From contig NZ_JFHL01000005.1 of assembly GCF_003664995.1 (NCBI RefSeq), positions 62,001 through 126,000 on the forward strand: a stretch of 64,000 nucleotides of DNA. Reading direction: 5' to 3'. Position 1 is the first letter of the stretch, and each line of letters opens with the position of its first letter. The notes under the pieces are model-generated. The model searched no databases. It had not been told where the DNA came from and worked only from the letters and a program-made list of their open reading frames with translations. The position numbers and the translations under genes were made by a program. Below are positions 4,430-20,507 of the stretch, piece after piece. Origin of the DNA: Mesotoga sp. BH458_6_3_2_1. GTDB taxonomy: Bacteria; Thermotogota; Thermotogae; Petrotogales; Kosmotogaceae.

Positions 4430-6481
4430 TCAATCGTACTCTATTCCCTGATCCCGGAGATTCGAGCTGTAGATAAGTTTTAATGAGCTTCTGAAGAATA
4501 GCAACAGCGGTAATATCCCGATTATTGAGGCGGCTCCAAAGAGATTCCAGGAGGTGTAGAAGCTTCTGACTTCTCCCACATAGCCGTAGATTTTCAGCGA
4601 GAAAGGCATAAGCTCCTGGCTGTTCAGCAGAATCAAAGGCATACTGAATGAGTTAAACGACGAAACGAGAACGTATGTAAGCAGGCCGCCAATTACGGGT
4701 AATGAAAGAGGAATCACAATTCTCAAGAAATAGCCTATTTCCGACAATCCTTCAATCAGAGAGACTTCCCGAAGCTCCTTTGGAATCGAGGAAAAAAACG
4801 AACCGAGAAGCAGTATTGTGAGAGGGAGCGACTGGATACAAACGACCATTCCTACACCAAAGAGACTGTCCGTAATTCCCAGTCTTTCGAAGACGAAATA
4901 CATTGGAAGCAATGTATGCATTCCAGTGTACAGGCTTCCGAAAAGTATCACCGCGGCTATTCCGTTAACAAAGGGAGTTCTCTTTGTTGCGAGGAGGTAT
5001 GAAAAGGGAATTCCCGCCAGAAGCACCATGACAAAAGCCCAGAAAGAGACTCCGATCGTATTGAAGATATTTGACAGAAGTCCGTCCGAGAGGACTCTCG
5101 AATAGTTCGAGAGGGTCGGCATGGTTAAAGAAGGCAGTATACTGGAGTCGGAAGCAAAAGAGAGAAAGAGGATATACAGTACCACAACGGCTGTGGGAAG
5201 CAGACAGACCGTTACTAGAACTCTCTTCAGCCATTCGGGCACCGAAAAATCAAATTGCGGGAGTCTGTATCTCAAAGAGAAAAGGATCAACGGCACGCTC
5301 AGCAGCGACGCAGGGATGATTCCGCTTATACCGCTCTGTGCCACACTGAAGATACTCAACATAACTTCGTACATCAGGAGAATGCCTACAAGTCTCCGGA
5401 AGCTCTTCTTGAAGCGGGGTATTATCAGAGGGAGAATCGCGTAGCCTGTAACTATGGGAATTATGTACCAGTTCCAGCCGGTCAGAAGCCCGAGAAAGAC
5501 ATGGGCGGCGCTGCTAAGAAAGAGAACCTGCCTGTGCCTCCTGGGAACCTCGCTTCTCGAGAAGAGAGCGCCAAGGATCCAGATGATCGCAAAGATGCCC
5601 ACGAACACTGCGTAGGCAGAGAGAAGTCCGTAATCCTTTGCAGTGTTGAACTTTCTGAACAGCACTATTCCCAGAAAGGTTGTTGAACCGGTAAGAGTCT
5701 GCGGTGTGAACCCTTCGGGTAGCAGAGGACCGTTTCCCGTCATAAGGAAGACCGAAGTGAATTCCTTCATCGATCTCGCCAGCTGGAACAGGAAATAGGG
5801 AATCAGCAGATACCGTATCTCTCCAAAGAGTATGTTTGAAGTAGCTACGTCTCCCGTTCCATCGATCTTCATTACATCGTCCAGTTCTCTGGAGACTCTT
5901 CCAAGCATGCCCAGAATGACCATTGTCGAAAGCGGTATCGAAAGCCACACGCTCACCAGAAGGGAGGAAGCGAATGCATGGAAGGCATTCAGTGTCACGT
6001 CTATCTCCGTTCCCAAAAGAGTGTTCAATAAAGAATATCCACCGTATCCCTGGACGAAGGCCCTCCACCCGGAAACGGTTATGAAGGAAGGTATGAACCA
6101 GCCGACCCCCAGCAGAAGAAGAGCCGCCTTACTACGTCTTGTCTCCTTTCTCAGTCTGAGAGCGATGAAGAAGGATATCGAGATCTCCAGTGTCGTCTTG
6201 AGAGTTGACCACAAAGCCGTCAGTCTTAAGGAAAGCTTGAAGCCTGAATCTCGAATCACTGCTTCGTAGTTCTTCAGACCGACCAAAACCGGAGCCGTTT
6301 GGAAGACTCCATATTCTGTGAAGGAGACATAGAGAGCCCACGCTATCGGCGCAACGGTAGCAATTGACAGAATAAAAGCTACCGGAAGCGCCATGGGCCA
6401 CTTTCTTCTCAAGATGAAGGGAAGCAGGCCCAGGGCAAAGAAAATCGGTATTACAACCGACATATCACCAAACAGATTCAA
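4430..6481 (-). CDS. ABC importer permease, two permease domains fused in one chain
   Basis: 683 residues with two binding-protein-dependent transport domains in tandem (about 80-310 and 430-675). Each has an EAA-type cytoplasmic loop: RELDDVMKIDGTGD at about 198-211 and KELREVSLIEGLSE at about 568-581, each followed by a proline-containing membrane segment. Normally these are two proteins; fused pairs are known in the ferric-iron/phosphonate/thiamine permease group (FbpB type, usually about 500-550 residues), and this one is longer because of extra membrane segments in the middle. It overlaps the binding-protein gene by 17 bp and ends the purine-type operon. No ATPase is encoded beside it. 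Confidence 0.85.
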   Translation of the reverse strand: MNLFGDMSVVIPIFFALGLLPFILRRKWPMALPVAFILSIATVAPIAWALYVSFTEYGVFQTAPVLVGLKNYEAVIRDSGFKLSLRLTALWSTLKTTLEISISFFIALRLRKETRRSKAALLLLGVGWFIPSFITVSGWRAFVQGYGGYSLLNTLLGTEIDVTLNAFHAFASSLLVSVWLSIPLSTMVILGMLGRVSRELDDVMKIDGTGDVATSNILFGEIRYLLIPYFLFQLARSMKEFTSVFLMTGNGPLLPEGFTPQTLTGSTTFLGIVLFRKFNTAKDYGLLSAYAVFVGIFAIIWILGALFSRSEVPRRHRQVLFLSSAAHVFLGLLTGWNWYIIPIVTGYAILPLIIPRFKKSFRRLVGILLMYEVMLSIFSVAQSGISGIIPASLLSVPLILFSLRYRLPQFDFSVPEWLKRVLVTVCLLPTAVVVLYILFLSFASDSSILPSLTMPTLSNYSRVLSDGLLSNIFNTIGVSFWAFVMVLLAGIPFSYLLATKRTPFVNGIAAVILFGSLYTGMHTLLPMYFVFERLGITDSLFGVGMVVCIQSLPLTILLLGSFFSSIPKELREVSLIEGLSEIGYFLRIVIPLSLPVIGGLLTYVLVSSFNSFSMPLILLNSQELMPFSLKIYGYVGEVRSFYTSWNLFGAASIIGILPLLLFFRSSLKLIYSSNLRDQGIEYD

Positions 6482-7568
6482 TATACGACTGCGCGCCTTT
6501 TAGGGCTTGATCGACTGTCATAGCGCCACTATATATAGCCTGCAAAGCTGGTTCCAGGGCTTCAAACAAAAGGGATTGGTACCCGGGACGATTGGGCATA
6601 AATCTTCCTTCGTCTATGATCTCTTCCAGTTCGGGAAGCCAGTCGGAACGGAATAGGGGATATTTGTCGCACTGAACGAAAAACTCCCTGCTGTGCTCGT
6701 TGAGGAAGTTTATGAAACTGAGACACTGGTCGCGGGTTTCTCCGTTGAAAAGAGCAAAGCCCTTCGAGTCTATTACACCTTTGATCTCTACGCCCTCGAG
6801 ATCGGGAAAAGGCACCATTGCGAATTTCGGCCCCTTCTCTCTGAATTTCTCGGCCATATAGCTTCCCTGGAGCATTATCCCGATTTTTCCCTGTCTGAAG
6901 AGACCATTCATTGCAGCTCTCTCTAGCCTCGAGATAGTCCCTTCGTCAAAGTATTTCATAACCTTCGATACAGCTTCTATGCTTCCTTGAGATCCCACAA
7001 GAAGATTTTCCGTCTCTTCCTCGGATTGCAGGGCCGAAACGTATGGAAACATTACGTAAGGGGATGTGAAATCGAATGCTATCGGGTAATCGACAACGCC
7101 GGCGAGCCTTTCTTCTATCAGTTCGAATTGAGAAAAGTCAAGTCCTTCTTCGAGATTCAATCCAGCTTGCTCAAACGCGTCGATATTGACAAAGGCAACC
7201 TGACTGTCCGCATAGTAGGGAACTGCTCCGACAACACCGTTCCAGATATATGGACTGAGATATCTTTCCGGGTAGTCTTTAAGCGCATCTTCCGAAATAG
7301 GGAGGCTCTTGTCTGAAGAGGCTACATCCCCTATATATGTATCTTTTATCAAAGCGGCATCGGGCAGATCACCTGTCTTCAGACTGATATTCAGCTTTTC
7401 CTCGATCTTGGGGAAGTAAACGATCTCTACAGGTATGCCTGTCTGGTTATAGAAATCGTCCGCAGCCTGTCTGTAGAAGGCCTCGCCTTCCCAGCTCACC
7501 CAGAAAGTTATGCTTAAGGCTGCCGAACAGAGCAATACAGCAAGTGCAGATGCAAGTAACTTCTTCAT
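6465..7568 (-). CDS. Extracellular solute-binding protein (family 1 type)
   Basis: 367 residues with a signal peptide (about 1-19) and the typical early motif ITFWVSWEG. GGAGG lies just before the ATG, inside the end of the molybdenum hydroxylase gene, and only 1 bp separates the two genes, so they are surely co-transcribed. The fold is that of family 1 binding proteins, which carry sugars, polyamines, iron or other solutes, so the ligand cannot be read from the sequence. Context suggests a purine, urate or a related nitrogen compound. No lipobox Cys is seen, so the protein is probably periplasmic. Confidence 0.85.
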   Translation of the reverse strand: MKKLLASALAVLLCSAALSITFWVSWEGEAFYRQAADDFYNQTGIPVEIVYFPKIEEKLNISLKTGDLPDAALIKDTYIGDVASSDKSLPISEDALKDYPERYLSPYIWNGVVGAVPYYADSQVAFVNIDAFEQAGLNLEEGLDFSQFELIEERLAGVVDYPIAFDFTSPYVMFPYVSALQSEEETENLLVGSQGSIEAVSKVMKYFDEGTISRLERAAMNGLFRQGKIGIMLQGSYMAEKFREKGPKFAMVPFPDLEGVEIKGVIDSKGFALFNGETRDQCLSFINFLNEHSREFFVQCDKYPLFRSDWLPELEEIIDEGRFMPNRPGYQSLLFEALEPALQAIYSGAMTVDQALKGAQSYIESVW

Positions 7569-7569
7569 T

Positions 7570-9882
7570 TCATACCTCCATACTCAGTATCTCGAAAAGA
7601 ACCCGTTCACTCTTGAAAGGAGCGTGTCGCAGGCGGATGCCGGTAGCGTCGAAAATCGCGTTGGCTATTGCAGGAATCGGCGTGTCTATTCCGATTTCGC
7701 CAATGCTCTTCGCCCCAAAGGGGCCCGTCGGTTCGTAACTGTCTACGAGTCCGCAGGTAAGCTTTCCGTAATCCATCCTCGAAGGAACTTTATAGGTGAA
7801 GAAATCATTTGTCAGCATTCTTCCGTTCTTTGCGTATATTATGTCTTCGTATAATGCCCACCCAATACCCTGCATCGAGGCTCCTTCGAGCTGACCCATC
7901 GCCTGAATTGGATTCAACGCAAGACCGCAATCGGCGTAGGAAACGTAATTGATCAGGGTGATCTTGCCGGTGTCTGTGTCGACTTCAACCTCTGCGAAAC
8001 TTGCCGCGAATGGCGGGGGAGACTCTTCGCCGACATAGGATGCCGACTCGGAAATCTGCTGCTGGTTGAACGTGTACATGTGCATAGTACAGAGTTCCGA
8101 TAGCGATACGGAAGAACCGTCTTTTCCTCTGATCACTCCGGATTCGAGCGTAAGTTCCGATCGATCCCTTTCCAGATACTCGGCCGCAAGATCAAGTACC
8201 TTTTCCTTTACCTTCTCTGCGGCGAGCCTGACGGCGTTTCCAGAGACATATGTGGTGCTGGAGGCGTATGCACCGACGTCAAAAGGAGTAAGGTCCGTAT
8301 CCGAGGAATATACGACGATCTTATCGAGAGGAACGGTTAACACCTCGGCGGCTATCTGACCGAGAATAGTGTCGCTTCCAGTGCCGAGGTCCGTAGCTCC
8401 CACGAGAAGATTGAATGAACCGTCTTCATTCATTTTGATGGTCGCCGCCCCCATATCGATCTTCGGGATTCCCGAGCCCTGCATTGCAAGCGCACATCCC
8501 ACGCCACGAACCTTCGTTCCGTTTTTCGTCTTCTTTCCCCGTTTGCTATCCCAGTCGATTGCCTTTTTTCCGAGATCGATGCACTCCTGAAGCTTACAGC
8601 TCCTCATGATCTGCGGAACCCCTTCTCTTCCTTCTCCCATGATTTCGAATATTGGAGAGGTCTCGCCCTCTCTTATGGAGTTCATCTCTTTGAGCTTCAG
8701 CGGATCCATTTTCATCTCGTGGGCCAGTTCGTCGATCGCGCAATCAAGCGGGAAAAGTCCCTGGGGCGCTCCATACCCTCTATATGCCCCCGCGGGAGGA
8801 AGGTTTGTGTAGACTATGTCGCCTCCGAAATGAACGGCGTCCACCTTGTTGTAAAGAGGCAGTGTCTTTGAACCGGCGACCATGAACGTAGTGAGACAGT
8901 GTTCTCCATATGCACCCGTGTTCGATATGCCTTGCAGCGATATGGCTCTGATTTTTCCATCTTTCGTTGCGCCGACGGCGACATCGAAACTCATTTCGTG
9001 GCGAATATTGGTTCCCATTGAGACTTCTTCCCTGCCGCAAACGATTCTTGCGGGCATTCCTGTCTTGATAGTTACGAGAGCCGCATAAGGTTCAACGATA
9101 ATAGACTGCTTGCCTCCAAAACCTCCGCCGATTCTCGGTTTTATCACACGAATATCCGCAATTGGCTTTTTCAATATGCGGGAAAGGATTCTCCTGCAAT
9201 GGAACGGCACCTGAGTTGAAGAAACGACGATAAGTCTTCCAACAGAGTCAAAATAAGTCAGAGCGTTGTGTGGCTCCAGCGCGGCATGAAGCTGTGTATC
9301 TACGTGATAGGTCTTCCTCAAGACAAAATCGCAGCTTTCCAGAGTCTTCTCCACATCGCCAATATCCATCACAAAGTGAGCGGCTATGTTTCTTGATTTA
9401 TCGAAGACGCCTGAGCAATCTTCTTCGTCATGAATTACTGGAGCTCCCTCATTCGACGCCTCTCTCATATCGAAGACCGGATCGAGAATTTCATATTCGA
9501 CCTTGATGTTCTTCACGGCCTCTCTTGCGGCCTTTTCGCTTTTTGCAGCCACAACAGCCACCACGTCTCCAACGTACCTTACCTTGCTATCCAGAAGATA
9601 AGTATCGTAGGGAGAAGGCTCCGGATATCCCTGACCGGCCCTTGTGAAAGGTATTCTATCGATATCTTTGAATGTGAAGACGCCGACTACATCGTGAATC
9701 GCCTCGGCCTGTCCGGTATCAATGCTCTTGATTTGAGCGTGGGCATGTGGCGAGCGCAAAAGCTTCACCACAAGAGCGTCAGGCGCATCGTAGTCGGGAG
9801 TGTACACCGGTTTTCCCCTAACGAGTGCCAGGCCGTCGACTTTCTTTTCTGGCCTTCCTACCGTTTTGAAGTGTTCACTCAT
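7570..9882 (-). CDS. Molybdenum hydroxylase, molybdopterin-binding large subunit (xanthine dehydrogenase family)
   Basis: 770 residues from the ATG at 9882, preferred over a GTG at 9891 because GGAGAGG fits it better. Family motifs are visible: GGGFGGKQ near 255, AYRGYGAPQ near 370 and GPFGAKSIGEIG near 730, whose Glu is the catalytic base of the family. With the 2Fe-2S and FAD subunits just upstream it would form a three-subunit hydroxylase that oxidises purines (for example hypoxanthine or xanthine) using water as oxygen source. It is the only large subunit in the cluster, although two FAD and two iron-sulfur subunits are present. Cytoplasmic. Substrate identity is inferred from context. 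Confidence 0.9.
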   Translation of the reverse strand: MSEHFKTVGRPEKKVDGLALVRGKPVYTPDYDAPDALVVKLLRSPHAHAQIKSIDTGQAEAIHDVVGVFTFKDIDRIPFTRAGQGYPEPSPYDTYLLDSKVRYVGDVVAVVAAKSEKAAREAVKNIKVEYEILDPVFDMREASNEGAPVIHDEEDCSGVFDKSRNIAAHFVMDIGDVEKTLESCDFVLRKTYHVDTQLHAALEPHNALTYFDSVGRLIVVSSTQVPFHCRRILSRILKKPIADIRVIKPRIGGGFGGKQSIIVEPYAALVTIKTGMPARIVCGREEVSMGTNIRHEMSFDVAVGATKDGKIRAISLQGISNTGAYGEHCLTTFMVAGSKTLPLYNKVDAVHFGGDIVYTNLPPAGAYRGYGAPQGLFPLDCAIDELAHEMKMDPLKLKEMNSIREGETSPIFEIMGEGREGVPQIMRSCKLQECIDLGKKAIDWDSKRGKKTKNGTKVRGVGCALAMQGSGIPKIDMGAATIKMNEDGSFNLLVGATDLGTGSDTILGQIAAEVLTVPLDKIVVYSSDTDLTPFDVGAYASSTTYVSGNAVRLAAEKVKEKVLDLAAEYLERDRSELTLESGVIRGKDGSSVSLSELCTMHMYTFNQQQISESASYVGEESPPPFAASFAEVEVDTDTGKITLINYVSYADCGLALNPIQAMGQLEGASMQGIGWALYEDIIYAKNGRMLTNDFFTYKVPSRMDYGKLTCGLVDSYEPTGPFGAKSIGEIGIDTPIPAIANAIFDATGIRLRHAPFKSERVLFEILSMEV

Positions 9883-10348
9883 CGGTTTCACCTCTCCTTA
9901 CTTCGGCCGCCTTCTTTATCGCTCTATTCTGAGGCTCATATCCCGTGCATCTGCATAAGTTACCGTTCAAAGCGAGCCGGATATCTTCATCGGTCGGATC
10001 GGGATTTTCTCTCAGCAGAGCTTCACCGGTCATAACAACCCCGGGAATACAGTATCCGCACTGGGCGGCACCCTCCTCGAGAATCGCTTCTTGAATTGGA
10101 TGGAGCTTATCGCCATCTGCCATCCCTTCTACCGTCTCTATGTTTTGCCCGTCTATCGAAGCGGCGAAAGTAGAACAAGATAGTATCGGTTTTCCGTTCA
10201 GCAGAACCGTGCAGGTGCCGCAGCTCGCTGAACCGCAGCTCCTTCTCACGCTCTTGTAGCCGATTCTTCTGAGAACTTCGAGAAGATATTCCCCGGGCTC
10301 GATGTCGAGTTCATGAAGCCTTCCGTTAACGGTTAATGCTATTCTCAT
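9875..10348 (-). CDS. Molybdenum hydroxylase 2Fe-2S subunit (first copy)
   Basis: 157 residues. It carries both clusters of the family: the plant-ferredoxin type (RRSCGSASCGTC, with a further Cys in PILSC) in the N-terminal half, and the helical C-terminal type (CGYCIPG and NLCRCTGY). It passes electrons from the molybdenum centre to the FAD subunit. The gene overlaps the large subunit by 8 bp and the FAD subunit by 4 bp (ATGA), which supports one complex with 7570-9882 and 10345-11184. The length is typical for the family. Confidence 0.92.
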   Translation of the reverse strand: MRIALTVNGRLHELDIEPGEYLLEVLRRIGYKSVRRSCGSASCGTCTVLLNGKPILSCSTFAASIDGQNIETVEGMADGDKLHPIQEAILEEGAAQCGYCIPGVVMTGEALLRENPDPTDEDIRLALNGNLCRCTGYEPQNRAIKKAAEVRRGETDE

Positions 10349-11184
10349 CGAATCATCCCCTTCAGCTTTTCGGCTGCTCTCTGAGCAAGGACCGACGCGA
10401 GGTGCTTTCTGTATTCGAAGGAAGCGGTCATATTCGATCCTCCGACAAAACTCTCGTAAAGCAGGCTCCTTACGATCGAAGGCATGACATCATTTATCTC
10501 CAAATCAGCCATGGCGCTCTCGACGCTTTCAAACCTCGCCGGATACTGCGGCCTCGATCCGCATACAACTCGGGCGGCCTTTATTCTTCCCTGTTCCGGC
10601 CTGATTGAAAGACCGACATTGACGGTCGCAATGTCGAAAGTAGTTTTAGAGAATTTTTCAAAGGCCGAGTACCAGCCGTCTCTCTTCAGCATTATGTGTG
10701 TTATCAAAGGTTTTTCGCCTGCAGGGAGGGAAAAGTAATCGGATATCAGCATTCTCTGATAACCGTCTACTCCGTAGACCATAAGGCTGGAGCCCGTGAC
10801 CAGGAGGCAGGTGCTTACGTCGGACCATCCTAGTTTCGGCGCTATAGAGCCTCCGATAGTCGCCATATTCCTAATTTGCCATGAACCGACGAGAGAGAAG
10901 GCCTCATAGAAGAACTCTCCGAACTCCTTTCTTATCAGCTGGTCCTTCCTGAAGGACTCAACGGTTGTCGTCGCGCCAACGACAATTTCGTCTTCGGTCA
11001 CAGAGACCGTGTCAAGTCTGAGCGATTTCAGATCGATGACTTTTTCGATGCGCGATGACTCCATCAAAGCCACGATAGTTCCTCCGGAAAGGAATATTGA
11101 ATGTTCTTTGTCGCTCTGCATAAGTTCGTATGCCTCTTCAACTGTCTGCGGTCTGAAGTACTCACTTACGTTAGTCAGCATCAT
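10345..11184 (-). CDS. Molybdenum hydroxylase FAD-binding subunit (first copy)
   Basis: 279 residues of the CoxM/XdhB FAD-binding family. An early FLSGGTIVAL segment and QIRNMATIGGSIAP near residue 110 are the two flavin-contact motifs. It accepts electrons from the 2Fe-2S subunit and passes them to NAD or another acceptor. The ATG follows AGAGGGGAT. It overlaps both neighbours by a few bases. It resembles E. coli YgfM in role and context. The paralogue at 11171-12007 is clearly divergent. Confidence 0.9.
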   Translation of the reverse strand: MMLTNVSEYFRPQTVEEAYELMQSDKEHSIFLSGGTIVALMESSRIEKVIDLKSLRLDTVSVTEDEIVVGATTTVESFRKDQLIRKEFGEFFYEAFSLVGSWQIRNMATIGGSIAPKLGWSDVSTCLLVTGSSLMVYGVDGYQRMLISDYFSLPAGEKPLITHIMLKRDGWYSAFEKFSKTTFDIATVNVGLSIRPEQGRIKAARVVCGSRPQYPARFESVESAMADLEINDVMPSIVRSLLYESFVGGSNMTASFEYRKHLASVLAQRAAEKLKGMIR

Positions 11185-12007
11185 ATCCCCTCTTTCTCCA
11201 GACTTTTAAGGTTCTCGAAATGAGATTCTTTATCACGGTACTTCTATACCACGAGCTTGCACGAACATCATCGATCGGTGTGACGGATTTCATTGCGAGC
11301 TCGATGAACCTGGCTTCGTCAAAGGACTCTCCAGATCTTGAATAGTACTCGCAGGCTTCGACTGGAACGACAACCACGGGAGCGACCGATCCGAAGGCCA
11401 TCCTGATCTCCGATTCTGAGATTAGAGATCCTACGGAAGCCACTGCAATGGCCATTGCGTTCCTCTGGCCAACTTTGTGGAACTGAGGAAAGAAATCTCC
11501 AGTCTTTTCGAACGTTATGGACTTGACGAATTCCCCACTCGCAAGAGAGGTCGATCCAGGTCCCTTTATGAAGTCGGCGATTCTTTCGACTCTCTCTCCT
11601 GTCGGCCCACCTATAGACAGCCTTGCATTGGAAAGCAACATAGGGACTATCGAATCGCCCGCGGGAGAAGCGTTGACGACATTTCCAACCAGTGTGGCCC
11701 GGTTTCTGATCTGTGGACTTCCAATCTCTCTTAAAGCCATCTCCAGTATTTTGCTGTGCTTGATAATTGCATCGCTGTTCAGAAGTTTGGACATTGTGAC
11801 CTTACAGCCTACTCTAAGCGAATCGCCCAGGTCTTCTATGGTATCAAACCCCTCGAGATGCCTCAGGCTTATCACCTTGTCTGGGAGTACTCTCTTCAAT
11901 CGTATCTTCACCAGCAGGTCGGTGCCGCCGGCAAGAATACAGCTTCTCTCAGAAAGGAGTGTTTGGAGCTCCTCCTCACTGGTCGGCATAAAAACCCTAA
12001 ACGACAT
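11171..12007 (-). CDS. Molybdenum hydroxylase FAD-binding subunit (second copy)
   Basis: 278 residues, same family as the preceding gene. The flavin motifs AGGTDLLV (about 25-32) and QIRNRATLVGNVVNASPAGD (about 104-123) are closer to the textbook XdhB/CoxM consensus than in the first copy. GGAGGTGA precedes the ATG. It overlaps the first FAD subunit by 14 bp. No second large subunit lies in the window, so it may serve an enzyme encoded elsewhere or alternate on the same large subunit. Confidence 0.9.
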   Translation of the reverse strand: MSFRVFMPTSEEELQTLLSERSCILAGGTDLLVKIRLKRVLPDKVISLRHLEGFDTIEDLGDSLRVGCKVTMSKLLNSDAIIKHSKILEMALREIGSPQIRNRATLVGNVVNASPAGDSIVPMLLSNARLSIGGPTGERVERIADFIKGPGSTSLASGEFVKSITFEKTGDFFPQFHKVGQRNAMAIAVASVGSLISESEIRMAFGSVAPVVVVPVEACEYYSRSGESFDEARFIELAMKSVTPIDDVRASSWYRSTVIKNLISRTLKVWRKRGYDAD

Positions 12008-12039
12008 CTCACTTCACCTCCAAAATCCTCTCTCGCTAT

Positions 12040-12630
12040 TTAAAAAGAATAATCGTGGTCAGAATGAACTATCTTGCCCGGGACATCGATGTCAAAGACA
12101 TTGTGTCTTCCGCCTTCAATTTCGCGAATCGATGCCAAGTTTCTTTTCACCAGTTGAAAGGCGCCCTTGTCACCGGAAATTCTGGAGAGTTCGGGGAACA
12201 GCTTCTTCGATATGAATGTCGGAAAGCCTTTTTTACCCCGAAAAACGAAGGAGACCATTTCATCATCTGGCCTTACGGAATCGAGAAGAGATTTTACGTC
12301 TTCTCCTGTAATCAAAGGCATATCTGCGAGCGACAAGACGATTCCTTCACAGCTTTTGGGGCACTCTTCCATCCCCCTGACTATGCTTGTCGATATACCG
12401 TCTGAATAGTTCTCGTTGACAACCGTTCTGAACGTACCGGTCCTGAATTTTCTGATTTCGAAATCCGGCTTCAGTACCAGAATCTTCTTTAGAGCAACGA
12501 CGCTTTCAAGATTATCGAGCGACCATTGAAGAAGAGGTTTCCCCCTGAAATCCGTAAGAAGCTTCTCGCCGCGAAAACGACTGGATTCTCCGGCCGCGAG
12601 AAGTATCAGTGCAACCGATTCACTATTCAT
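12040..12630 (-). CDS. mocA: Molybdenum cofactor nucleotidyltransferase, MocA-like
   Basis: 196 residues. The N-terminal LLAAGESSRFRGEKLL is the NTP-transferase motif typical of MocA (molybdopterin cytidylyltransferase), and SLADMPLIT near residue 99 holds the metal-binding Asp. MocA converts Mo-molybdopterin to the cytosine dinucleotide form used by many enzymes of this hydroxylase family. It sits between the two iron-sulfur/FAD modules, matching the E. coli island where mocA (ygfJ) neighbours ygfK-ssnA-ygfM-xdhD. It overlaps the upstream gene by 8 bp. CTP preference over GTP is assumed from the family. Confidence 0.8.
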   Translation of the reverse strand: MNSESVALILLAAGESSRFRGEKLLTDFRGKPLLQWSLDNLESVVALKKILVLKPDFEIRKFRTGTFRTVVNENYSDGISTSIVRGMEECPKSCEGIVLSLADMPLITGEDVKSLLDSVRPDDEMVSFVFRGKKGFPTFISKKLFPELSRISGDKGAFQLVKRNLASIREIEGGRHNVFDIDVPGKIVHSDHDYSF

Positions 12631-13096
12631 TTGCTTTCCTTAGGTTCTCAGCTGCCGTTCGTATTGCCTGTAGTATCTTGTAGTAGCCGGTACATCTGCA
12701 GAGGTTGCCCTCTATCGCTTCCATTATCTCTTCATCGCTTGGATTGACCTTCCGGTCGAGGAGCGCCTTCGTTGACATAATCATTCCCGGCGTGCAGAAT
12801 CCGCACTGAACTGCTCCTTCGTCAATGAAGGCCTTCTGAATGGGGTCAAGCTCTCCATTTCTAGAGAGCCCTTCGATCGTTGTGATCTCTGAGCCGTCTA
12901 TTTCAGGAAGAAGGACGAGACAGGAATTGACCGCTTTGCCGTCGATTATTACGGTGCAGGCTCCGCACTCTCCTTCGCCACAACCTTCCTTTGTCCCGGT
13001 GAGTCCCAGTTCGCCACGTAAGAAATCCAGCAACCTGATATCTTCCTTAACATCCATTGTTAAAGTCTCATCGTTAAGTGTGAAGGTGATCTTCAT
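12623..13096 (-). CDS. Molybdenum hydroxylase 2Fe-2S subunit (second copy)
   Basis: 157 residues with the complete set of cluster ligands: GCGEGECGACT plus a later Cys in VNSCLVLL, and CGFCTPGMIM with NLCRCTGYYKI. It has the same length and architecture as the copy at 9875-10348 but a different sequence, so it is not a recent duplicate. It overlaps mocA by 8 bp and the PLP enzyme gene by 4 bp. Its natural partner is probably the second FAD subunit (11171-12007). Confidence 0.92.
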   Translation of the reverse strand: MKITFTLNDETLTMDVKEDIRLLDFLRGELGLTGTKEGCGEGECGACTVIIDGKAVNSCLVLLPEIDGSEITTIEGLSRNGELDPIQKAFIDEGAVQCGFCTPGMIMSTKALLDRKVNPSDEEIMEAIEGNLCRCTGYYKILQAIRTAAENLRKANE

Positions 13097-14325
13097 CTAA
13101 GTGCCTCCTCAATAACATCTTTCTCCGGCGGGAGGGTCTTTACTTCGGGAAGAACAGTCGATACATTCTTGAGATCCTTCAAGCCATTGCCCGTAACGAC
13201 GACCAGAATCCTGCTACTTTCGTCGACAATCCCGATTTCTCTCGCCTTTCTGAACCCGGCAAATGCTGTCGCTCCGGCCGGCTCAGCGAATACGCCTGTC
13301 TCCCTTGCAAGTTCAATTATACCCCGAAGAATTCGGCTGTCTGAAACAGATAAAAAGAGACCTTCATGTGCTTTGGTGTAGCGACAGGCCTTAACGACAT
13401 CTCTCGGTTTTCCAACGCAGATACTGTCGGCAACCGTCGATGCCTCGAAATCGATCGGGTCGAAGGGGAAACCCCTTTCATAGGTTCTCATAATCGCGGC
13501 GGAGCCCTCTGCCTGCACTCCTACCATGGTCGGCATTTTGTTTATGATCCCTAGTTTGATGAGATCATCAAATCCCTTGTAGAAACTTGAAAGCACAGTT
13601 CCGTCTCCTGCCGAAACAAAAACGAAATCCGGGAGATTATCCCGCATCTCAAAGGCAAGTTCAAGCGCGCAAGTCTTTTTCCCTTCGAGAAGATATGGAT
13701 TTATTGCGCTGTTTCTACAATACCAGCCCATTGACATTCCAATCTCCATCGAGAGATCGAATACCCTGTCGTAACTCGCATCAATTGCCAGAATCTTCGA
13801 GCCATAAACCTGGAGCTGAGTAATCTTTGCTGTCGGGGCCGTTGCAGGCACAAATATCACGCTCTTCATACCTGCCACGGCAGAAAGCCCGGACAGAGAA
13901 CTCGCCGCGTTTCCGGTTGAGGCACAGAAGATCGTGTTGAATCCCTTCGCTTTGGCCTTTGCCACTGCGATTGCGCTAGCTCTGTCTTTAAAGGAGGCCG
14001 TCGGGTTTCTTCCGTCGTCCTTCACAAATACCTCTGCCACCCCATACTTTCTTGCAAGAGAATCGCTTCTATACAGCGGCGTGTTTCCAACCAGAAGCTC
14101 CGGAGGATCGACCTCTTCTTCAAAGGGCAGCAGAAAGTCGAAAGCCCAGATTCCCTTTCTGTGAAGCGGTAATGAACTGCATCTATATTGCTTTCTCACC
14201 TGCTCGAAATCATAAACGACTTCCAGTGTTCCCCTTCTCTCACCGCAATCGGGGCAGAAGTAATCTACTTCATCTTCTGTAAATTCCTTGCCGCAACTGA
14301 TGCACTTTAGAAAGTATTTTCTCAA
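13093..14325 (-). CDS. PLP-dependent threonine-synthase-like enzyme with N-terminal zinc ribbon; candidate YgeX counterpart
   Basis: 410 residues from a TTG that overlaps the upstream stop codon (TTGA), preceded by GGCGGTG; a longer in-frame start at 14388 lies inside the upstream gene and is unlikely. Two CxxC pairs (C8/C11 and C24/C27) form a zinc ribbon. The body is a fold type II PLP enzyme: TASFKDRAS carries the Schiff-base Lys, and STGNAASSLS is the phosphate/substrate loop. Closest in layout to threonine synthase, but the neighbours are all of the YgeW/YgeY/SsnA set, where E. coli has YgeX (2,3-diaminopropionate ammonia-lyase, also fold type II). A lyase role in purine carbon-skeleton release is inferred. 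Confidence 0.75.
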   Translation of the reverse strand: MRKYFLKCISCGKEFTEDEVDYFCPDCGERRGTLEVVYDFEQVRKQYRCSSLPLHRKGIWAFDFLLPFEEEVDPPELLVGNTPLYRSDSLARKYGVAEVFVKDDGRNPTASFKDRASAIAVAKAKAKGFNTIFCASTGNAASSLSGLSAVAGMKSVIFVPATAPTAKITQLQVYGSKILAIDASYDRVFDLSMEIGMSMGWYCRNSAINPYLLEGKKTCALELAFEMRDNLPDFVFVSAGDGTVLSSFYKGFDDLIKLGIINKMPTMVGVQAEGSAAIMRTYERGFPFDPIDFEASTVADSICVGKPRDVVKACRYTKAHEGLFLSVSDSRILRGIIELARETGVFAEPAGATAFAGFRKAREIGIVDESSRILVVVTGNGLKDLKNVSTVLPEVKTLPPEKDVIEEALR

Positions 14326-15401
14326 GTCAGGACACCGCCGATCGCGCCAACTGGGCAACGTGATTCGCACAGCCCGCAACCGAAGCACTCAGCCGTGTCC
14401 ACTTCCACCTTTTCATCCAGACTCAGCGCAAAGTAAGGGCAAACCGCAACACACAATCCGCATCTCGTACATTTATCGTGATCGATTACCGGATTCCTCA
14501 CCTCAAAGGACTCTTTCTGTCTTTCGGCAGAGTCGATCGCATCTTTCACACTCTCAAATCCTCTCTTTTCGAGAGCCGACGGAAGAGAGTCTACTATCCT
14601 TTTGAAAAGTTCTTTACCGTTTATCAGGGCTCCAGAAAGCATCTGCACCGCCGACGCGCCGCAAGAGAGAAAGTCAATAACATCATCTGCGCTTGAAACG
14701 CCACCGACTCCAATTATCGGCAGAGAACAGCCCTCGCGAATTCTCCTTACGGATGAGAGGGAAAGCTTCTTGATCACTGGACCGCTTATCCAGCCGAAGC
14801 CATCCCCGCTCCCCATCAAAGAACGATTGGCCTTCCGATCGAAGGGATAGACTGGACCGAGTGAGTTTATGGCAACGATCCCGTCGCCACCGGATTCCTG
14901 GACCGCTCCGGCCATCTCGGCGGGATCTGGAACCGAAGGGTCGAACTTCAGGAAGACCGGCTTGTCAGTTCCTTCTTTGACTGCCGAGATCAATTCCTTC
15001 ATGAGAGAGGGATCATCTGCAACGTAATGAGTCGACAACTCAAAACCATCTGCAAATTCAGAGAATAATGGAACGAGCTTTCTCAGATCTTCAGGGGAGT
15101 AGCCGAGACTAATTATCAGTGGAAGACCGGAATACTTCTTATACTCGGGGAGGAACTCCTCAAGCCATCTGTCGGGAGAGAACTCGCTCCATAGTTCCGT
15201 GTTCACTACGAAATCTCTTTCTGCGATTATGCAGGGTCTCGGGACCTTCGCGGCTATGGTGGATATGGTTTTCGTTACCATTGCCCCGACCCCCATCGTC
15301 TCGATGGCGCGCATCTTTCTGTGATCTCCTGTGAGCGGACCGGAAGCAGGCATCAACGGATTCTTCAGATAAATTCCGGCCACTTCTGTCGAAAGATTCA
15401 T
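14322..15401 (-). CDS. PreA-like flavoprotein with two 4Fe-4S clusters (dihydropyrimidine/dihydroorotate dehydrogenase family)
   Basis: 359 residues: an FMN-binding TIM barrel of the dihydroorotate/dihydropyrimidine dehydrogenase family (about 1-290; NPLMPASGPLTGD at the N-terminus, GVGGVSSADD near 235) followed by two ferredoxin-type clusters (CTRCGLCVAVCP and CFGCGLCESRCP). It resembles the PreA half of bacterial dihydropyrimidine dehydrogenase, without a PreT partner here. In the E. coli island this position is held by the large flavoprotein YgfK. The PreA-like protein may do the equivalent reduction of a purine ring. That is inference from position; the family itself is clear. Confidence 0.82.
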   Translation of the reverse strand: MNLSTEVAGIYLKNPLMPASGPLTGDHRKMRAIETMGVGAMVTKTISTIAAKVPRPCIIAERDFVVNTELWSEFSPDRWLEEFLPEYKKYSGLPLIISLGYSPEDLRKLVPLFSEFADGFELSTHYVADDPSLMKELISAVKEGTDKPVFLKFDPSVPDPAEMAGAVQESGGDGIVAINSLGPVYPFDRKANRSLMGSGDGFGWISGPVIKKLSLSSVRRIREGCSLPIIGVGGVSSADDVIDFLSCGASAVQMLSGALINGKELFKRIVDSLPSALEKRGFESVKDAIDSAERQKESFEVRNPVIDHDKCTRCGLCVAVCPYFALSLDEKVEVDTAECFGCGLCESRCPVGAIGGVLT

Positions 15402-15413
15402 CCAAGCACCTCC

Positions 15414-16712
15414 TTAGAACCTCTTCTCAAAAGCTTTGAATAGTCTTCGCGCCTCTTTGTATATAACATCTTCATCGATTCTTGCTGGTCTTCCCTCCGC
15501 GAGTATTCTCTCTCCGGCGACGAATGCGTCGCTTACCGAAATGTTGTCGCAGATTCCAAAGAAGAAGTGATCCATAAAGTTTTCTGCTGTGATCTCCGTT
15601 GGGCTGCGGTAGTTCAGGATTATGAAGTCCGCAGAGCTTCCTTCCCTGATCGTCCCGAGATTCACACCGAATGCGCTCGTTGCGAGATCGTAATTAGAGC
15701 CAAAAAGCGAACGAGTGAGATCGCCCGAATAGCTCGCTGCCGGATCACGATGAACATAGTGGGGGCAGAGAATCATGAATCTAGCGTCATGGCAGAGATT
15801 GAAGCCATAACCGTCGTTTCCCATAAGCAAGTTAGTGCCCTCATCGTTGAACTTCTTCCATTCCGGGAAGCCAACACCGTTGTTGATATTCGATTGACAG
15901 TTGACCACAATATAGCCTTTCGTGTCCTTTATGAGAGCTCTTTCAGATGCTGTCGTGTGAATGCAATGCGCATACAGCGAGTTCTGAATCATGAGCCCAG
16001 CTCTGTGAAACCGCTCCAGTATTCTTTGATCGTAAAGGCTAAATGTATGTTCCTGATCCTCGGGGCCCTCGGCGACATGAACGTGTATCGGAAGCCTTCC
16101 GGCTATCTCCTTCGAGGCCAAAGAGAGAGTTTCCTTCGAGAGAGTGAAAGAAGCGTGAAAGCCGAAGATCCCTTTCTTATAGGCTGTGTTCACTTTGGCG
16201 AAATCCAGGTTCTCGCGAATTCCCCTGTCCCGTCGTTCGAGTCCGTCTCGATCTGAGACTTCATAGGCTCCGCAATATCTGAGGCCTACAGTATTTACTG
16301 AAGAAGCTATCTTGTCAAGAGAACCCTCAATTGCATTCGGAGAGGAATTGTGGTCAAAGAGCGTCGTGACTCCTCCCTTCAGAGACTCTATAGCGGCGAC
16401 ATACGCAGAAAGTTCCAGGTCTTCATGAGTCAACGCTCTGTCCAGTCGCCACCACAAGTCCTCCAGCAGCTTGGTGAACGACGAGGGATTGAAGGGTGAC
16501 ACTCTCAGGCCCCTCGAGAAAGTCGAGTAGATATGAGTATGCGCATTTACCAGTGACGGCATAAGCAGTCTGCCCTCGAAATAGAGATTCTCTCCGTCAT
16601 ACTTGCAATCGCCGGCAGAGACTTTCACGATCTCTCCATTTTCAACTCTCACGTACCCTCTTTCGATGAACTCTCCGTCATTTGTAAAGATCGAAACACC
16701 GTTTATCTGCAT
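15414..16712 (-). CDS. ssnA: Amidohydrolase, SsnA family
   Basis: 432 residues from the ATG at 16712 (GGGGGAAGG upstream); it overlaps the hydantoinase gene by 10 bp. It is a metal-dependent amidohydrolase of the chlorohydrolase/guanine-deaminase group. NAHTHIYS near residue 55 gives the first metal His pair, HVHVAEG near 205 another, and GNDGYG near 300 the metal Asp. SsnA is a standard member of the yge/ygf purine island and of the anaerobic urate-degradation clusters. Ring opening or deamination of an oxidised purine is the likely role. Confidence 0.85.
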   Translation of the reverse strand: MQINGVSIFTNDGEFIERGYVRVENGEIVKVSAGDCKYDGENLYFEGRLLMPSLVNAHTHIYSTFSRGLRVSPFNPSSFTKLLEDLWWRLDRALTHEDLELSAYVAAIESLKGGVTTLFDHNSSPNAIEGSLDKIASSVNTVGLRYCGAYEVSDRDGLERRDRGIRENLDFAKVNTAYKKGIFGFHASFTLSKETLSLASKEIAGRLPIHVHVAEGPEDQEHTFSLYDQRILERFHRAGLMIQNSLYAHCIHTTASERALIKDTKGYIVVNCQSNINNGVGFPEWKKFNDEGTNLLMGNDGYGFNLCHDARFMILCPHYVHRDPAASYSGDLTRSLFGSNYDLATSAFGVNLGTIREGSSADFIILNYRSPTEITAENFMDHFFFGICDNISVSDAFVAGERILAEGRPARIDEDVIYKEARRLFKAFEKRF

Positions 16713-18085
16713 GAACCTTCCCCCCAGCGTACTCGTCCACGTTGGATAAAGCATCCTGAAGCCTTTGGAAGCAGCACATCGCCATCCCTGAAGGCGATCT
16801 TTCCTCTGTGGATTACCGTTTCAACGGAGCCCTTGAGCCTCATTCCCTCATACAGCGAATGGTCTGACCTGGTGAAAGGCGATTTCGACGCGGTAATCTC
16901 CGCATCTCTGTCAACCACTGCAATATTGGCCACGCTACCGGGAGCCAGGAGCCCTCTTTTTGGAAAGAGACCGAATATCCTGGCGGGATTAGCTGAAAGA
17001 AGGGCAGAGACTTTCACAAGATTCCCACTGAGCAGGGTATTTAAAGTGGCAAATGAAAGCCCCAGCGATCCCGAGCCGTTCGGCATCTTCGAATATTCGG
17101 CTCGATTCTCAGATTTTTCCTGGCTTAGGAAGGGACAGTGGTCCGTTCCGATTGAGGATATCTCGCCCCTTTGCACAGCAGAAACTAATAATAGACGCTC
17201 ATTCTCGCTCCTGGGCGGGGGGCAGTAAGTGTTGAGGTACCCTTCTTCTCCTTGAAGCGGTTCTTTGTTCAGAAGAAGATATTGTGGACAGGTCTCGAGT
17301 TTTGTGAAATCTCTCCAGTCGCCACCCATTGAAGAGAGAGTTCTTGTGGTCTCTCCGCTCGAAACATGAACCACATAAAGCTGACCATTTCTCTCGAGCG
17401 AAATCAGTGCGAGCTTGGCGACTTCGGACAGCTCACTAATGGTGGGCCTGAGAGACGAGAGCTCTCTGAAGGTCGAACTTTTGTAATCCGAAGCGATTTC
17501 GTTGATTATCTCATCGTTTTCCGAATGGGCCAGCAGCACGAATCCCAGTTTTCTTGAAAGCGAAAGCAATCTGTAAATCATCCCGTCGCCCGTTCTGCGA
17601 TTGGAGGAACTATAAGTTGTGAAGATCTTTATTGATGGCATTCTGGCCTCTATCGCCGCCTCTGCGATCTCTTTGGCAGAGAATTCGGGACTCCCGGCAA
17701 GCGTGACGTGAAAAGCATAATCTACTCTGCTGTCTGCAGCCGTCTGCATCCGACTCTTCTTCGCTTTCTCAAAGTCTGAAAGAGTGGAGACGGGATCGAG
17801 AAAATCTATCAGAGTGGTCACTCCTCCGCTTAGAGCAAGAGCCGATCCCGAATCGAAATCATCGACGGAAGTGTATCTTCCCAGATTGAGACTGAGATGC
17901 ACATGGGGATCGATAAACCCTGGAAGCAAAAACAACCCCGAACAGTCCAGGGTCTCCCTTGCAGGGAACTTTTCTCTAATTGAAGATATTACTGCGACTT
18001 CCTCGCCCGTCACGTAGACATTTGCAGGAAAAAGCCTGTCACCTGTACAGACAGTTCCATTTTCAAGGGCGAGGTCGTAACTCAC
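16703..18085 (-). CDS. hyuA: Cyclic amidohydrolase, hydantoinase/dihydropyrimidinase family (YgeZ/HyuA-like)
   Basis: 460 residues from a GTG overlapping the ygeW stop (GTGA). Motifs of the cyclic amidohydrolase family are present: DPHVHLSL near residue 60 (metal His pair), SIKIFTTYSS near 150 (the Lys that is carboxylated to bridge the metals), LLAHSEND near 180, VVHVSSGET near 235 and GTDHCPF near 315 (metal Asp). The enzyme opens hydantoin, dihydropyrimidine or allantoin-like rings. In the E. coli island the equivalent is HyuA/YgeZ. Confidence 0.85.
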   Translation of the reverse strand: MSYDLALENGTVCTGDRLFPANVYVTGEEVAVISSIREKFPARETLDCSGLFLLPGFIDPHVHLSLNLGRYTSVDDFDSGSALALSGGVTTLIDFLDPVSTLSDFEKAKKSRMQTAADSRVDYAFHVTLAGSPEFSAKEIAEAAIEARMPSIKIFTTYSSSNRRTGDGMIYRLLSLSRKLGFVLLAHSENDEIINEIASDYKSSTFRELSSLRPTISELSEVAKLALISLERNGQLYVVHVSSGETTRTLSSMGGDWRDFTKLETCPQYLLLNKEPLQGEEGYLNTYCPPPRSENERLLLVSAVQRGEISSIGTDHCPFLSQEKSENRAEYSKMPNGSGSLGLSFATLNTLLSGNLVKVSALLSANPARIFGLFPKRGLLAPGSVANIAVVDRDAEITASKSPFTRSDHSLYEGMRLKGSVETVIHRGKIAFRDGDVLLPKASGCFIQRGRVRWGEGSCR

Positions 18086-19071
18086 GGTCTTCCACCCATT
18101 GTGAGAGCCATGACCGCCTTGGAGGTGTGAAGTCTGTTTTCGGCCTCGTCTATTACGATCGATTGCGGACCGTCGATCACTTCATCCACGACTTCGCGTC
18201 CTCGATCTGCTGGAAGTGCGTGCATGTAGACAGCTCTCTTGTTTGCAACCTTCATTCTCTCGGGGGTGCAAATCCAGTCTTTGTTCTTCCTGACCTCCGT
18301 CATGATCTCCTGGGGATCTTCCGATACATAAAATCCTCCCCATGACTTCGGAATAACAATATCTGCATCTTTGAATGCCTCATCCATATCGTGGAGTATA
18401 TCGAACCTGGCCCCGCTCTCTTCTGCGTTAAGCCTTGCCTGATCAACTATGTCGGGCATCAAATCGAAGCCTTTCGGATATGCTAACTTCACGTCCATAC
18501 CGTATCTAGTGAAGAGAAGAATCTGGGACTGCGGAACGGAAAGTGGCTTAAGATGGCTCTCGGCGTAGGCCCAGGTTATTGCGACTTTAAGTCCGCTCAA
18601 GTTTGTCCCGAATCTCTCTCGAATTGTCATCATATCTGCCATAACCTGCATAGGATGATAGACGTCATCCTGGAGATTGAGAATTGGAACATCTGCATGT
18701 TCGGCAAGAGATCTCAGGTAAGGATTCCCCGCCTTGAACTTGCAGTGCCTGACGGCAATGGCGTGGCCGTATCTCGATAAAATCATGGCCGTATCACGCG
18801 GAACCTCTCCATGAGCCGTTTGCATCGTTGAAGGATCTAAATAGTGAGCATGACCGCCAAGCTGGGTTATTCCCGCTTCCATCGAATTTCGCGTTCTGGT
18901 GGACTGATCGAAGAACATCAAGAATACCGTCTGATATGGAAGCAAAGGTGTGGGATCATTCGTTGCGAATCTTCTCTTCAGATCAGAAGATAGATCGAGC
19001 ATAAGGTCAATTTCCGTTCTTCTGAAATCCTGTGTAGTAATGAAGTCTTTGCCTCTCAAAATACTACTCAT
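18082..19071 (-). CDS. ygeW: Knotted carbamoyltransferase, YgeW family
   Basis: 329 residues of the aspartate/ornithine carbamoyltransferase fold. FDQSTRTRNS near residue 55 binds carbamoyl phosphate, HPMQVMADMMT near 140 matches the HPxQ motif, and MHALPADRGREV near 290 replaces the HCLP motif of ornithine transcarbamylase, as expected for YgeW-type enzymes. GGAGGTAAC precedes the ATG. Its likely direction in catabolism is phosphorolysis of a ureido compound to carbamoyl phosphate, which yields ATP if a carbamate kinase is available; none is encoded in this window. Confidence 0.88.
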   Translation of the reverse strand: MSSILRGKDFITTQDFRRTEIDLMLDLSSDLKRRFATNDPTPLLPYQTVFLMFFDQSTRTRNSMEAGITQLGGHAHYLDPSTMQTAHGEVPRDTAMILSRYGHAIAVRHCKFKAGNPYLRSLAEHADVPILNLQDDVYHPMQVMADMMTIRERFGTNLSGLKVAITWAYAESHLKPLSVPQSQILLFTRYGMDVKLAYPKGFDLMPDIVDQARLNAEESGARFDILHDMDEAFKDADIVIPKSWGGFYVSEDPQEIMTEVRKNKDWICTPERMKVANKRAVYMHALPADRGREVVDEVIDGPQSIVIDEAENRLHTSKAVMALTMGGRP

Positions 19072-19087
19072 CTTGTTACCTCCTAAT

Positions 19088-20278
19088 CTATTGTGAAAGC
19101 CTTAACGGAAGAAGGGCATACATAGCCGCCGCCCTTACCAGATGATCGACAGGGCATTGATCGTCGGGACTGTGTGCGAAGATCTCATTTGCAGGGCCAA
19201 ATCCAATTGTTGGGATCGAGAAAACACCGGCGGTTGCGATTCCGTTGGTTGAGAATGTCCATTTGTCAACGAAAGGCTCCTCTCCGAAAACTTCTCTGTA
19301 GGTGTTTACCGTCTTCCGCACTATTTCGCTGTCCTCTTCCATTACCCATGTCGGGAAATACTTCTCGACTGGATAAATGGTTCCCGTATAGGAAGGTCTT
19401 TCATAGAAGAGTTCGACAATTTCAGCCTCTTCTCCGGCCATTTGAACGGCCTCTTGCAGCTCTCTGATAACCGTCTCTTTTGTCTCCCCGGCTGTCAGCC
19501 TCCTGTCGATCTGAATAGTGCACTCGTCGGCAACGGCGTTCTGCGAAGGGGATTTGAAGAATATCTGTGTCACGACTATCGTTCCCTTGCCCAGGAAGGG
19601 ATCGTCCGTGAGCCTTTCATTCAGTCTCTCGATTTCTGAAATGATTCGGCTCATCTTGTATATTGCGTTAATTCCTCGCTCGGGAGCGCTCGCGTGACAG
19701 GAGAGTCCCGAGGTTCTCACTTGAAGTTCCATTCTTCCTCTGTGTCCCCTGTAGATGTTTAAGTTCGTCGGTTCTGTAATGACGACATAATCCGGTATTA
19801 TACCGTCTTCCTTGATTATGTATCTCCAGCACAGACCGTCGCAATCCTCTTCCATTACCGTCCCTGTAACGTAAAGGGTGAAGTCTCCCAGAAGACCCTC
19901 TTCTTTCATTATCCTGGCTCCATAGACCATTGCTGCCATTCCGGCCTTCTGATCTGAAGCTCCCCTTCCGTAGATTACTCCGTCAGAGACCACTCCGCCG
20001 AAGGGATCTACTTTCCAGAGTTTCTCGTTTCCAACTTCGACGGTATCTATGTGGGCGTCCATTGCAATCACATTCTTGCCGGATCCTATTCTGCCAAGAA
20101 TATTCCCCAGTCCATCTATCCTGACTTCATCGAATCCAACTTTCTCCATCTCTTTTTGAATTCTCTGGACCACTTCTCTTTCGCCGGCGGAGAAGCTCTT
20201 GATACTAACAAGATCTCTAAGAAATTCGGTAAGTTCCTCGCGGTATGATTCAGCCTTGGTAAGAAGATCTCTCGACAC
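19088..20278 (-). CDS. ygeY: M20-family metallohydrolase, YgeY-like
   Basis: 396 residues if translation begins at the GTG at 20278, which has GGGAGTGA just upstream; the ATG at 20293 gives five more residues but no ribosome site. M20 metal ligands are visible: AHIDTVEVG (His), GASDQKAG (bridging Asp) and VMEEDCDGL (catalytic Glu and a metal Glu). The N-terminal region (FLRDLV, KEMEKVGFDEV, IDGLGNILG) closely resembles E. coli YgeY. This is the first gene of the 14-gene operon. It probably removes an acyl or carbamoyl group from an open-chain intermediate. Confidence 0.88.
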   Translation of the reverse strand: MSRDLLTKAESYREELTEFLRDLVSIKSFSAGEREVVQRIQKEMEKVGFDEVRIDGLGNILGRIGSGKNVIAMDAHIDTVEVGNEKLWKVDPFGGVVSDGVIYGRGASDQKAGMAAMVYGARIMKEEGLLGDFTLYVTGTVMEEDCDGLCWRYIIKEDGIIPDYVVITEPTNLNIYRGHRGRMELQVRTSGLSCHASAPERGINAIYKMSRIISEIERLNERLTDDPFLGKGTIVVTQIFFKSPSQNAVADECTIQIDRRLTAGETKETVIRELQEAVQMAGEEAEIVELFYERPSYTGTIYPVEKYFPTWVMEEDSEIVRKTVNTYREVFGEEPFVDKWTFSTNGIATAGVFSIPTIGFGPANEIFAHSPDDQCPVDHLVRAAAMYALLPLRLSQ

Positions 20279-20310
20279 TTTTGTCACTCCCATGCATTAG
20301 TATTTTCTTC

Positions 20311-20340: not shown

Positions 20341-20507
20341 GCAACATAAGAACCGGCTAACGCTCTAGTAATAGTATAGCTCGACTGACGGTGGTTCTCA
20401 AACAGATCATTTCGATGGAATTGGGCAGACTCTTGAGAGGGGAGTTCATGGGTGGCGAACTTTGCCACATACAATAGATATAATTATCATTAGAGGGAGG
20501 TGATTAG

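Follow-up and report, generated by a model that had tools for sequence, protein, structure and literature searches.

A predicted ferredoxin-linked variant of the reductive uric acid pathway in an operon of Mesotoga

How might an anaerobe of the phylum Thermotogota break down purines, and does its pathway start by oxidizing the purine ring or by reducing it? The question is raised by an operon of Mesotoga sp. BH458_6_3_2_1, located in a stretch of 64,000 nucleotides (contig NZ_JFHL01000005.1, positions 62,001 to 126,000), which is called the window here. In Escherichia coli and Clostridioides difficile, XdhD-YgfM reduces urate to 2,8-dioxopurine (yanthine), YgfK or UacX dearomatizes yanthine, SsnA and HyuA open the rings to yield 2,3-diureidopropionate, YgeW or UacY together with YgeY removes the ureido groups, and YgeX cleaves 2,3-diaminopropionate to pyruvate and ammonia (Li et al. 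2025, PMC12507026). The pathway was also arrived at by another group, and opinions differ on which ureido group is cleaved first (PMC12990295). We suggest that the Mesotoga operon very probably encodes a ferredoxin-linked variant of this pathway. The assignment of each step rests on homology, gene order, co-occurrence and diagnostic residues; the chemistry itself has been shown for no enzymes other than the homologues from E. coli and Clostridium.

The operon lies on the minus strand and comprises 14 open reading frames (ORFs) at 4430-20293, and neighboring ORFs overlap or are at most 32 bp apart. In the order of transcription they encode YgeY, YgeW, HyuA, SsnA, the PreA-like flavoprotein UacX, a fold-type-II pyridoxal phosphate (PLP) enzyme, an iron-sulfur subunit (FeS2), MocA, two flavin adenine dinucleotide (FAD) subunits (FAD2 and FAD1), another iron-sulfur subunit (FeS1), a molybdenum (Mo) subunit, a solute-binding protein and a fused ATP-binding cassette (ABC) permease; one Mo subunit is accompanied by two Fe-S and two FAD subunits. 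The longest overlaps, 67 bp between the PLP and UacX ORFs and 52 bp between those of SsnA and HyuA, are probably due to over-extended starts: in the PLP ORF, the predicted local distance difference test (pLDDT) score of residues 1-22 is below 50, and its true start is probably about 20 codons downstream. The gene order is identical in five other genomes of the genus (those whose loci were read, from a genus sample of 10 genomes), recurs in two further genera of the family with minor additions (an XdhC gene, for example), and in more distant Thermotogota families a core of YgeY-YgeW-HyuA-SsnA-UacX is kept. In genomes with a divided cluster, the PLP gene stands with the electron-transfer subunits, mostly beside an XdhD-type Mo gene, or adjoins UacX. 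Since the order recurs in the genus and family and the five-gene core in distant families, the operon appears to be more than a chance arrangement. The original prediction, made from the DNA letters alone, of 14 tightly packed same-strand genes forming an anaerobic purine or urate cluster of the yge/ygf/ssnA type holds: all the named families are present. Its view of the genome as Thermotogota-like is consistent with the best solved relative of the organism's own ornithine carbamoyltransferase, 1vlv (466 bits, next best 324), a Thermotoga maritima structure. The search of other Thermotogota genomes that it proposed found the gene set widely, with UacX in 67 of the 103 genomes of our phylum sample.

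The direction of the first step can be read from the Mo subunit. When compared with the E. coli proteins, it is closer to XdhD (40%, 520 bits) than to XdhA (35%, 431 bits), and a tree in which the E. coli rows sit on long branches groups the window type with E. coli XdhD at 99/99, to the exclusion of XdhA. A short insertion, MGEG in the window protein and IGEG in XdhD, holds the equivalent of XdhD Glu606. The insertion and its Glu occur in all eight aligned Thermotogota XdhD-type copies and in a Marinimicrobia copy, and the insertion is found neither in XdhA nor in the three Thermotogota xanthine dehydrogenases aligned. Glu606 has been tied to yanthine formation and is stated to be absent from XdhA (PMC12507026). 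Based on the XdhD-type score, the tree and the Glu606 insertion, we suggest that the operon begins with reduction, not oxidation, and its Mo enzyme is predicted to reduce urate to 2,8-dioxopurine. The original prediction that the operon oxidizes purines gives way here to a core that appears reductive, from urate through yanthine to dearomatization. In genome G048 (L056, 13526-15849), the large subunit of a Mo hydroxylase is encoded by a pair of overlapping ORFs (443 and 331 amino acids), which are either a split gene or a frameshift.

Purine oxidation to urate may be assigned to another locus, on contig C29 (L049, 6630-12006), where consecutive genes encode adenine deaminase, the large subunit of an orphan xanthine dehydrogenase and a PLP enzyme of 460 amino acids; a sugar-type ABC transporter comes next. 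This type of locus is conserved through the phylum, and in several genera it contains guanine deaminase, too. No FeS or FAD gene was found beside the C29 xanthine dehydrogenase or its counterparts in six other genera. In the trees, FeS1 and FAD1 fall into clades of their own (100/99 and 99/97), FAD2 joins the FAD subunits linked to xanthine dehydrogenases (89/92), and FeS2 lies outside the FeS1 clade with no firm placement; FeS2 is 49-62% identical to the FeS subunits adjoining Mo subunits of the xanthine dehydrogenase type in other genomes, and these match FeS1 less well. In genome G052, the urate reductase locus has a single FeS/FAD pair, and the Mo gene of the xanthine dehydrogenase type has its own pair. 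We suggest that the second pair of the operon probably serves the distant orphan xanthine dehydrogenase.

The UacX-like protein (359 amino acids) consists of PF01180, a dihydroorotate dehydrogenase (DHODH) fold, and Fer4 with two 4Fe-4S clusters, and it has no FAD/NAD(P)H domain. This architecture fits the published description of C. difficile UacX, which lacks the FAD/NAD(P)H domain and is linked to ferredoxin (PMC12507026). UacX, rather than YgfK, is thus predicted to be the dearomatizing flavoprotein here.

Two other readings would give the operon a different chemistry. The Mo enzyme could be a xanthine dehydrogenase that oxidizes purines before ring opening, as the top family-level matches, XdhA models at about 675 bits (cut-off 780), and the FeS2 and FAD2 subunits of the xanthine dehydrogenase type might suggest. 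However, this is very improbable for a subunit nearer XdhD than XdhA that carries the XdhD-only insertion, in a genome where a separate Mo subunit of the xanthine dehydrogenase type accompanies adenine deaminase; moreover, its best solved relative is 1rm6, 4-hydroxybenzoyl-CoA reductase, itself a reductive dehydroxylase. The PreA/DHODH-like nature of UacX and the top score of HyuA with dihydropyrimidinase would instead fit reductive degradation of uracil or thymine, with unrelated neighbors. The NFSCPQM segment of E. coli PreA, in which SCP carries the catalytic cysteine, is replaced by an invariant STHY in 13 of 13 aligned UacX copies; none of them has this mark of PreA/PydA, which speaks against uracil as the substrate. 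In addition, beta-ureidopropionase is not among the operon ORFs, whereas SsnA, YgeW, YgeY and XdhD are members of the urate set. We rejected the pyrimidine pathway, an extremely improbable reading, on the missing Cys segment. A selenium-dependent variant of the Mo hydroxylase was likewise rejected, since SelD (TIGR00476) was found in none of the 103 genomes at E <= 1e-30.

The steps that would follow the predicted reductions are those of ring opening and ureido cleavage. SsnA and HyuA are assigned by their best-matching families and their joint place in the cluster, and the pair for the ureido groups is present as a YgeW-type and a YgeY-type protein. The products named in the original prediction, carbamoyl phosphate, a C3 acid and ammonia, follow from these enzymes. 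As it also stated, carbamate kinase is missing from the window; the gene was located at C2:77314-78243 (415.8 bits, cut-off 358) beside a genuine ornithine carbamoyltransferase, and it may equally serve arginine catabolism. In the Chloroflexota loci L104, L106, L107 and L108, two adjacent or near carbamoyltransferase genes, one YgeW-like and one more distant, stand beside purine genes, and phosphorolysis might remove both ureido groups in these bacteria.

The description of the gene set as complete-looking stands for most families and fails at two places: a ferredoxin-type UacX takes the place of YgfK, and YgeX (diaminopropionate ammonia-lyase, TIGR01747) was found in 0 of the 103 phylum genomes, with the E. 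coli control being positive. Since YgeX is absent, the operon is classed as a variant of the pathway and not as an identical member. Most likely, the work of YgeX is done by the fold-type-II PLP enzyme of the operon, perhaps with a second enzyme. The best PDB fold matches (Foldseek) of its AlphaFold 2 model (pLDDT 82.5) are threonine synthases. When aligned with four solved threonine synthases and the organism's own enzyme on contig C1, however, it has STGNA for STGNT and NPYLLEG for NPYRLEG, changes at positions that in threonine synthase belong to the substrate loop and to phosphate binding. Both changes are shared by 14 of 14 aligned phylum copies and by ten copies from outside the phylum, the Arg being replaced by Leu, Ile or Thr. 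Across the phylum sample, the threonine-synthase-like enzyme and the 460-residue, cysteine-synthase-like PLP enzyme of C29 each occur in 65 of the 67 genomes with UacX, SsnA occurs in 63 and the XdhD type in 59, and none of the four has a copy in the 36 genomes without UacX. The two UacX-positive genomes without the threonine-synthase-like enzyme are 71% and 82% complete, and UacX and this enzyme are present or absent together inside at least four families. Operon-type PLP genes also stand near or next to YgeW in Fidelibacterota, Atribacterota, Gemmatimonadota, Ignavibacteria and Chloroflexota. A Marinimicrobia contig (L089) carries an XdhD-type Mo gene, HyuA, SsnA, YgfK, YgeY, YgeW, a threonine-synthase-like PLP gene and a xanthine dehydrogenase with its own FeS and FAD subunits, and no YgeX was found on that contig.

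It could be argued that this protein is an ordinary threonine synthase or has some other role, and that 2,3-diaminopropionate is handled by, for example, the 460-residue protein. The generic thrC model is indeed passed (188 bits, cut-off 167), in keeping with the fold matches, and the 460-residue enzyme co-occurs equally and in G052 is encoded directly upstream of YgeY. Nevertheless, we consider this rather unlikely: the substrate-loop Thr and the NPYRLEG Arg are lost in all aligned operon-type copies, a canonical threonine synthase with both motifs intact is already encoded on C1 beside an aspartokinase-family ORF of 729 amino acids, and the threonine-synthase-like enzyme is confined to UacX-positive genomes. 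The 460-residue enzyme may still be the real YgeX substitute.

Based on these assignments, we propose the following route. The ABC system would import a purine or urate, and urate would also be made by adenine deaminase and the orphan xanthine dehydrogenase, the latter borrowing FeS2 and FAD2 of the operon. The XdhD-type Mo enzyme with FeS1 and FAD1 would dehydroxylate urate to 2,8-dioxopurine, which UacX would reduce and dearomatize, with reduced ferredoxin as the probable donor. SsnA and HyuA would open both rings to give 2,3-diureidopropionate, from which YgeW would phosphorolyse one ureido group to carbamoyl phosphate, to be converted by carbamate kinase to ATP, CO2 and ammonia, and YgeY would hydrolyse the other to leave 2,3-diaminopropionate. 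The last compound would be cleaved to pyruvate and ammonia, most likely by the threonine-synthase-like enzyme, possibly together with the 460-residue enzyme.

Here, we need to consider several points that weigh against this proposal. Genomes of two genera (g6 and g11) combine UacX and the PLP enzyme with a Mo enzyme of another, non-XdhD type; an XdhD-type Mo gene was not found in them, and their SsnA scores reach 642 bits, over the cut-off. Most operon enzymes score under the equivalog cut-offs: NCBIfam cut-offs are passed only by YgeY (598 bits, cut-off 321) and in the generic thrC match, and the scores of SsnA (381, cut-off 444), YgeW (229, cut-off 453), XdhA (about 676, cut-off 780) and MocA (102, cut-off 186) fall below, as does that of HyuA. 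The P values for co-occurrence across the 103 genomes ignore shared ancestry, and both PLP enzymes co-occur with the pathway to the same extent, so either could replace YgeX. Finally, a genome search at E <= 1e-50 found MoaA in none of the 10 genus genomes, closed genomes included, and did not find it in 46 of the 67 UacX-positive genomes. With MoaA in 21 of 67 genomes with UacX and 11 of 36 without, it does not track the pathway, nor is its spread through the phylum tied to that of the Mo hydroxylases, of which complete genomes have two or three genes each; its phylogenetic profile thus gave the Mo enzymes no independent support. The gap likely reflects a divergent enzyme or a limit of the search, and may be a real cofactor problem. 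A wider claim would join all of this: a second urate-reduction branch in several environmental phyla, with YgeX replaced by a neofunctionalised threonine synthase paralogue plus the 460-residue PLP enzyme, the two electron-transfer sets of the operon split between urate reductase and a distant xanthine dehydrogenase, and in many members a Mo cofactor obtained without a recognisable MoaA. Taken jointly, this is possible but doubtful.

A further locus (L050, G000 contig C11, about 5.9-19.8 kb), conserved in G023 (L075), encodes a third Mo hydroxylase together with FeS and FAD subunits. The neighbors of this hydroxylase are a cyclase-like protein, AllG (an oxamate carbamoyltransferase subunit, PF06545), an FdrA-like CoA-ligase protein and a CoA-transferase-like protein, and the locus looks like another carbamoyl-yielding catabolic operon.

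The features of the operon and its surroundings are listed in Table 1. The permease substrate would be a purine or urate, and the divergent ABC ATPase probably energises this permease. No purine, xanthine or molybdenum-cofactor riboswitch was found near the operon at Rfam gathering thresholds. A SurE 5'/3'-nucleotidase gene (3544-4362, same strand) lies 67 bp downstream of the operon and could supply it with nucleotides or be an unrelated neighbor.

Table 1. Features of the predicted urate operon and its divergent neighbor (window positions).
Feature	Position	Strand	Evidence
Fused two-domain ABC importer permease	4430..6481	-	Weak GlcU/MalF/UgpA-type permease matches to both halves; operon-linked in genus and genome G019
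Extracellular solute-binding protein of importer	6465..7568	-	PF13416/PF01547; adjoins Mo subunit in genus and family
Mo hydroxylase large subunit, XdhD type, predicted to reduce urate to 2,8-dioxopurine	7570..9891	-	Scores, Glu606 insertion, tree
2Fe-2S subunit 1 (FeS1), predicted urate reductase partner	9875..10348	-	FeS1 clade in tree
FAD subunit 1 (FAD1), YgfM-like position, predicted urate reductase partner	10345..11184	-	Best E. coli match YgfM, 71 bits; FAD1 clade
FAD subunit 2 (FAD2), proposed partner of orphan xanthine dehydrogenase on C29	11171..12007	-	Groups with xanthine dehydrogenase-linked FAD subunits
MocA-like molybdenum cofactor cytidylyltransferase	12040..12630	-	TIGR03310, under cut-off
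2Fe-2S subunit 2 (FeS2), proposed partner of orphan xanthine dehydrogenase	12623..13096	-	Identity to xanthine dehydrogenase-linked FeS subunits; outside FeS1 clade
Threonine-synthase-like fold-type-II PLP enzyme, proposed YgeX substitute	13093..14388	-	Motifs, co-occurrence, AlphaFold 2/Foldseek
UacX-like flavoprotein (DHODH fold, two 4Fe-4S), predicted yanthine-dearomatizing reductase	14322..15401	-	PF01180 and Fer4
SsnA-type amidohydrolase (ring opening)	15414..16754	-	PRK07203, 381 bits; 63/67 UacX-positive genomes
HyuA-type hydantoinase/dihydropyrimidinase (second ring opening)	16703..18085	-	TIGR02033, 264 bits; E. coli HyuA 28%
YgeW-type carbamoyltransferase, shorter than E. coli YgeW	18082..19071	-	E. 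coli YgeW 41%, 219 bits; best solved relative 3q98
YgeY-type M20 hydrolase (second ureido group)	19088..20293	-	PRK13004, 598 bits; E. coli YgeY 55%
Divergent ABC importer ATPase	20508..21431	+	Conserved opposite YgeY in genus
Candidate divergent promoters	20373..20490 (20401-20373; 20462-20490)	-; +	Weak; consensus scan alone

The reductive urate pathway was proved in 2025 and discussed as a matter of gut and gout, and Thermotogota are not mentioned in the main text of that paper (PMC12507026). Our literature searches, one of which was swamped by medical matches, found no work that links Thermotogae or Mesotoga to uric acid, xanthine dehydrogenase or the degradation of purines. Since most Thermotogota families, which are free-living anaerobes, carry the pathway, it is probably an environmental route to nitrogen, carbon and ATP from purines. 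What is new here is a host phylum for which we found no earlier report, together with the apparent replacement of the last enzyme, YgeX. This branch would go unnoticed if annotation relied on YgeX to mark the pathway. For two unassigned PLP enzyme families, a candidate substrate can now be named.

When compared with known systems, the operon is nearest in content to the E. coli ygeW-xdhD island and the C. difficile cluster. It shares with the former an XdhD-type Mo enzyme, an FAD subunit in the YgfM position, SsnA, HyuA, YgeW, YgeY and MocA, with carbamate kinase encoded in the genome. Unlike the island, it has UacX instead of YgfK, separate FeS subunits, a second FeS/FAD pair, an ABC importer instead of a UacT/XanQ-type permease, no YgeX, and a carbamate kinase gene outside the cluster. 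With the C. difficile UacX/UacY cluster it shares a UacX devoid of the FAD/NAD(P)H domain, for which ferredoxin is the likely donor, but it keeps YgeW in place of UacY, has a Mo enzyme with FAD subunits, lacks YgeX and belongs to a phylum without SelD. The PLP enzyme, in turn, has the fold and the PLP-lysine motif of threonine synthases (6cgq, 2zsj and 1uim), whereas the substrate-loop Thr and the NPYRLEG Arg of those enzymes are replaced throughout the operon-type family.

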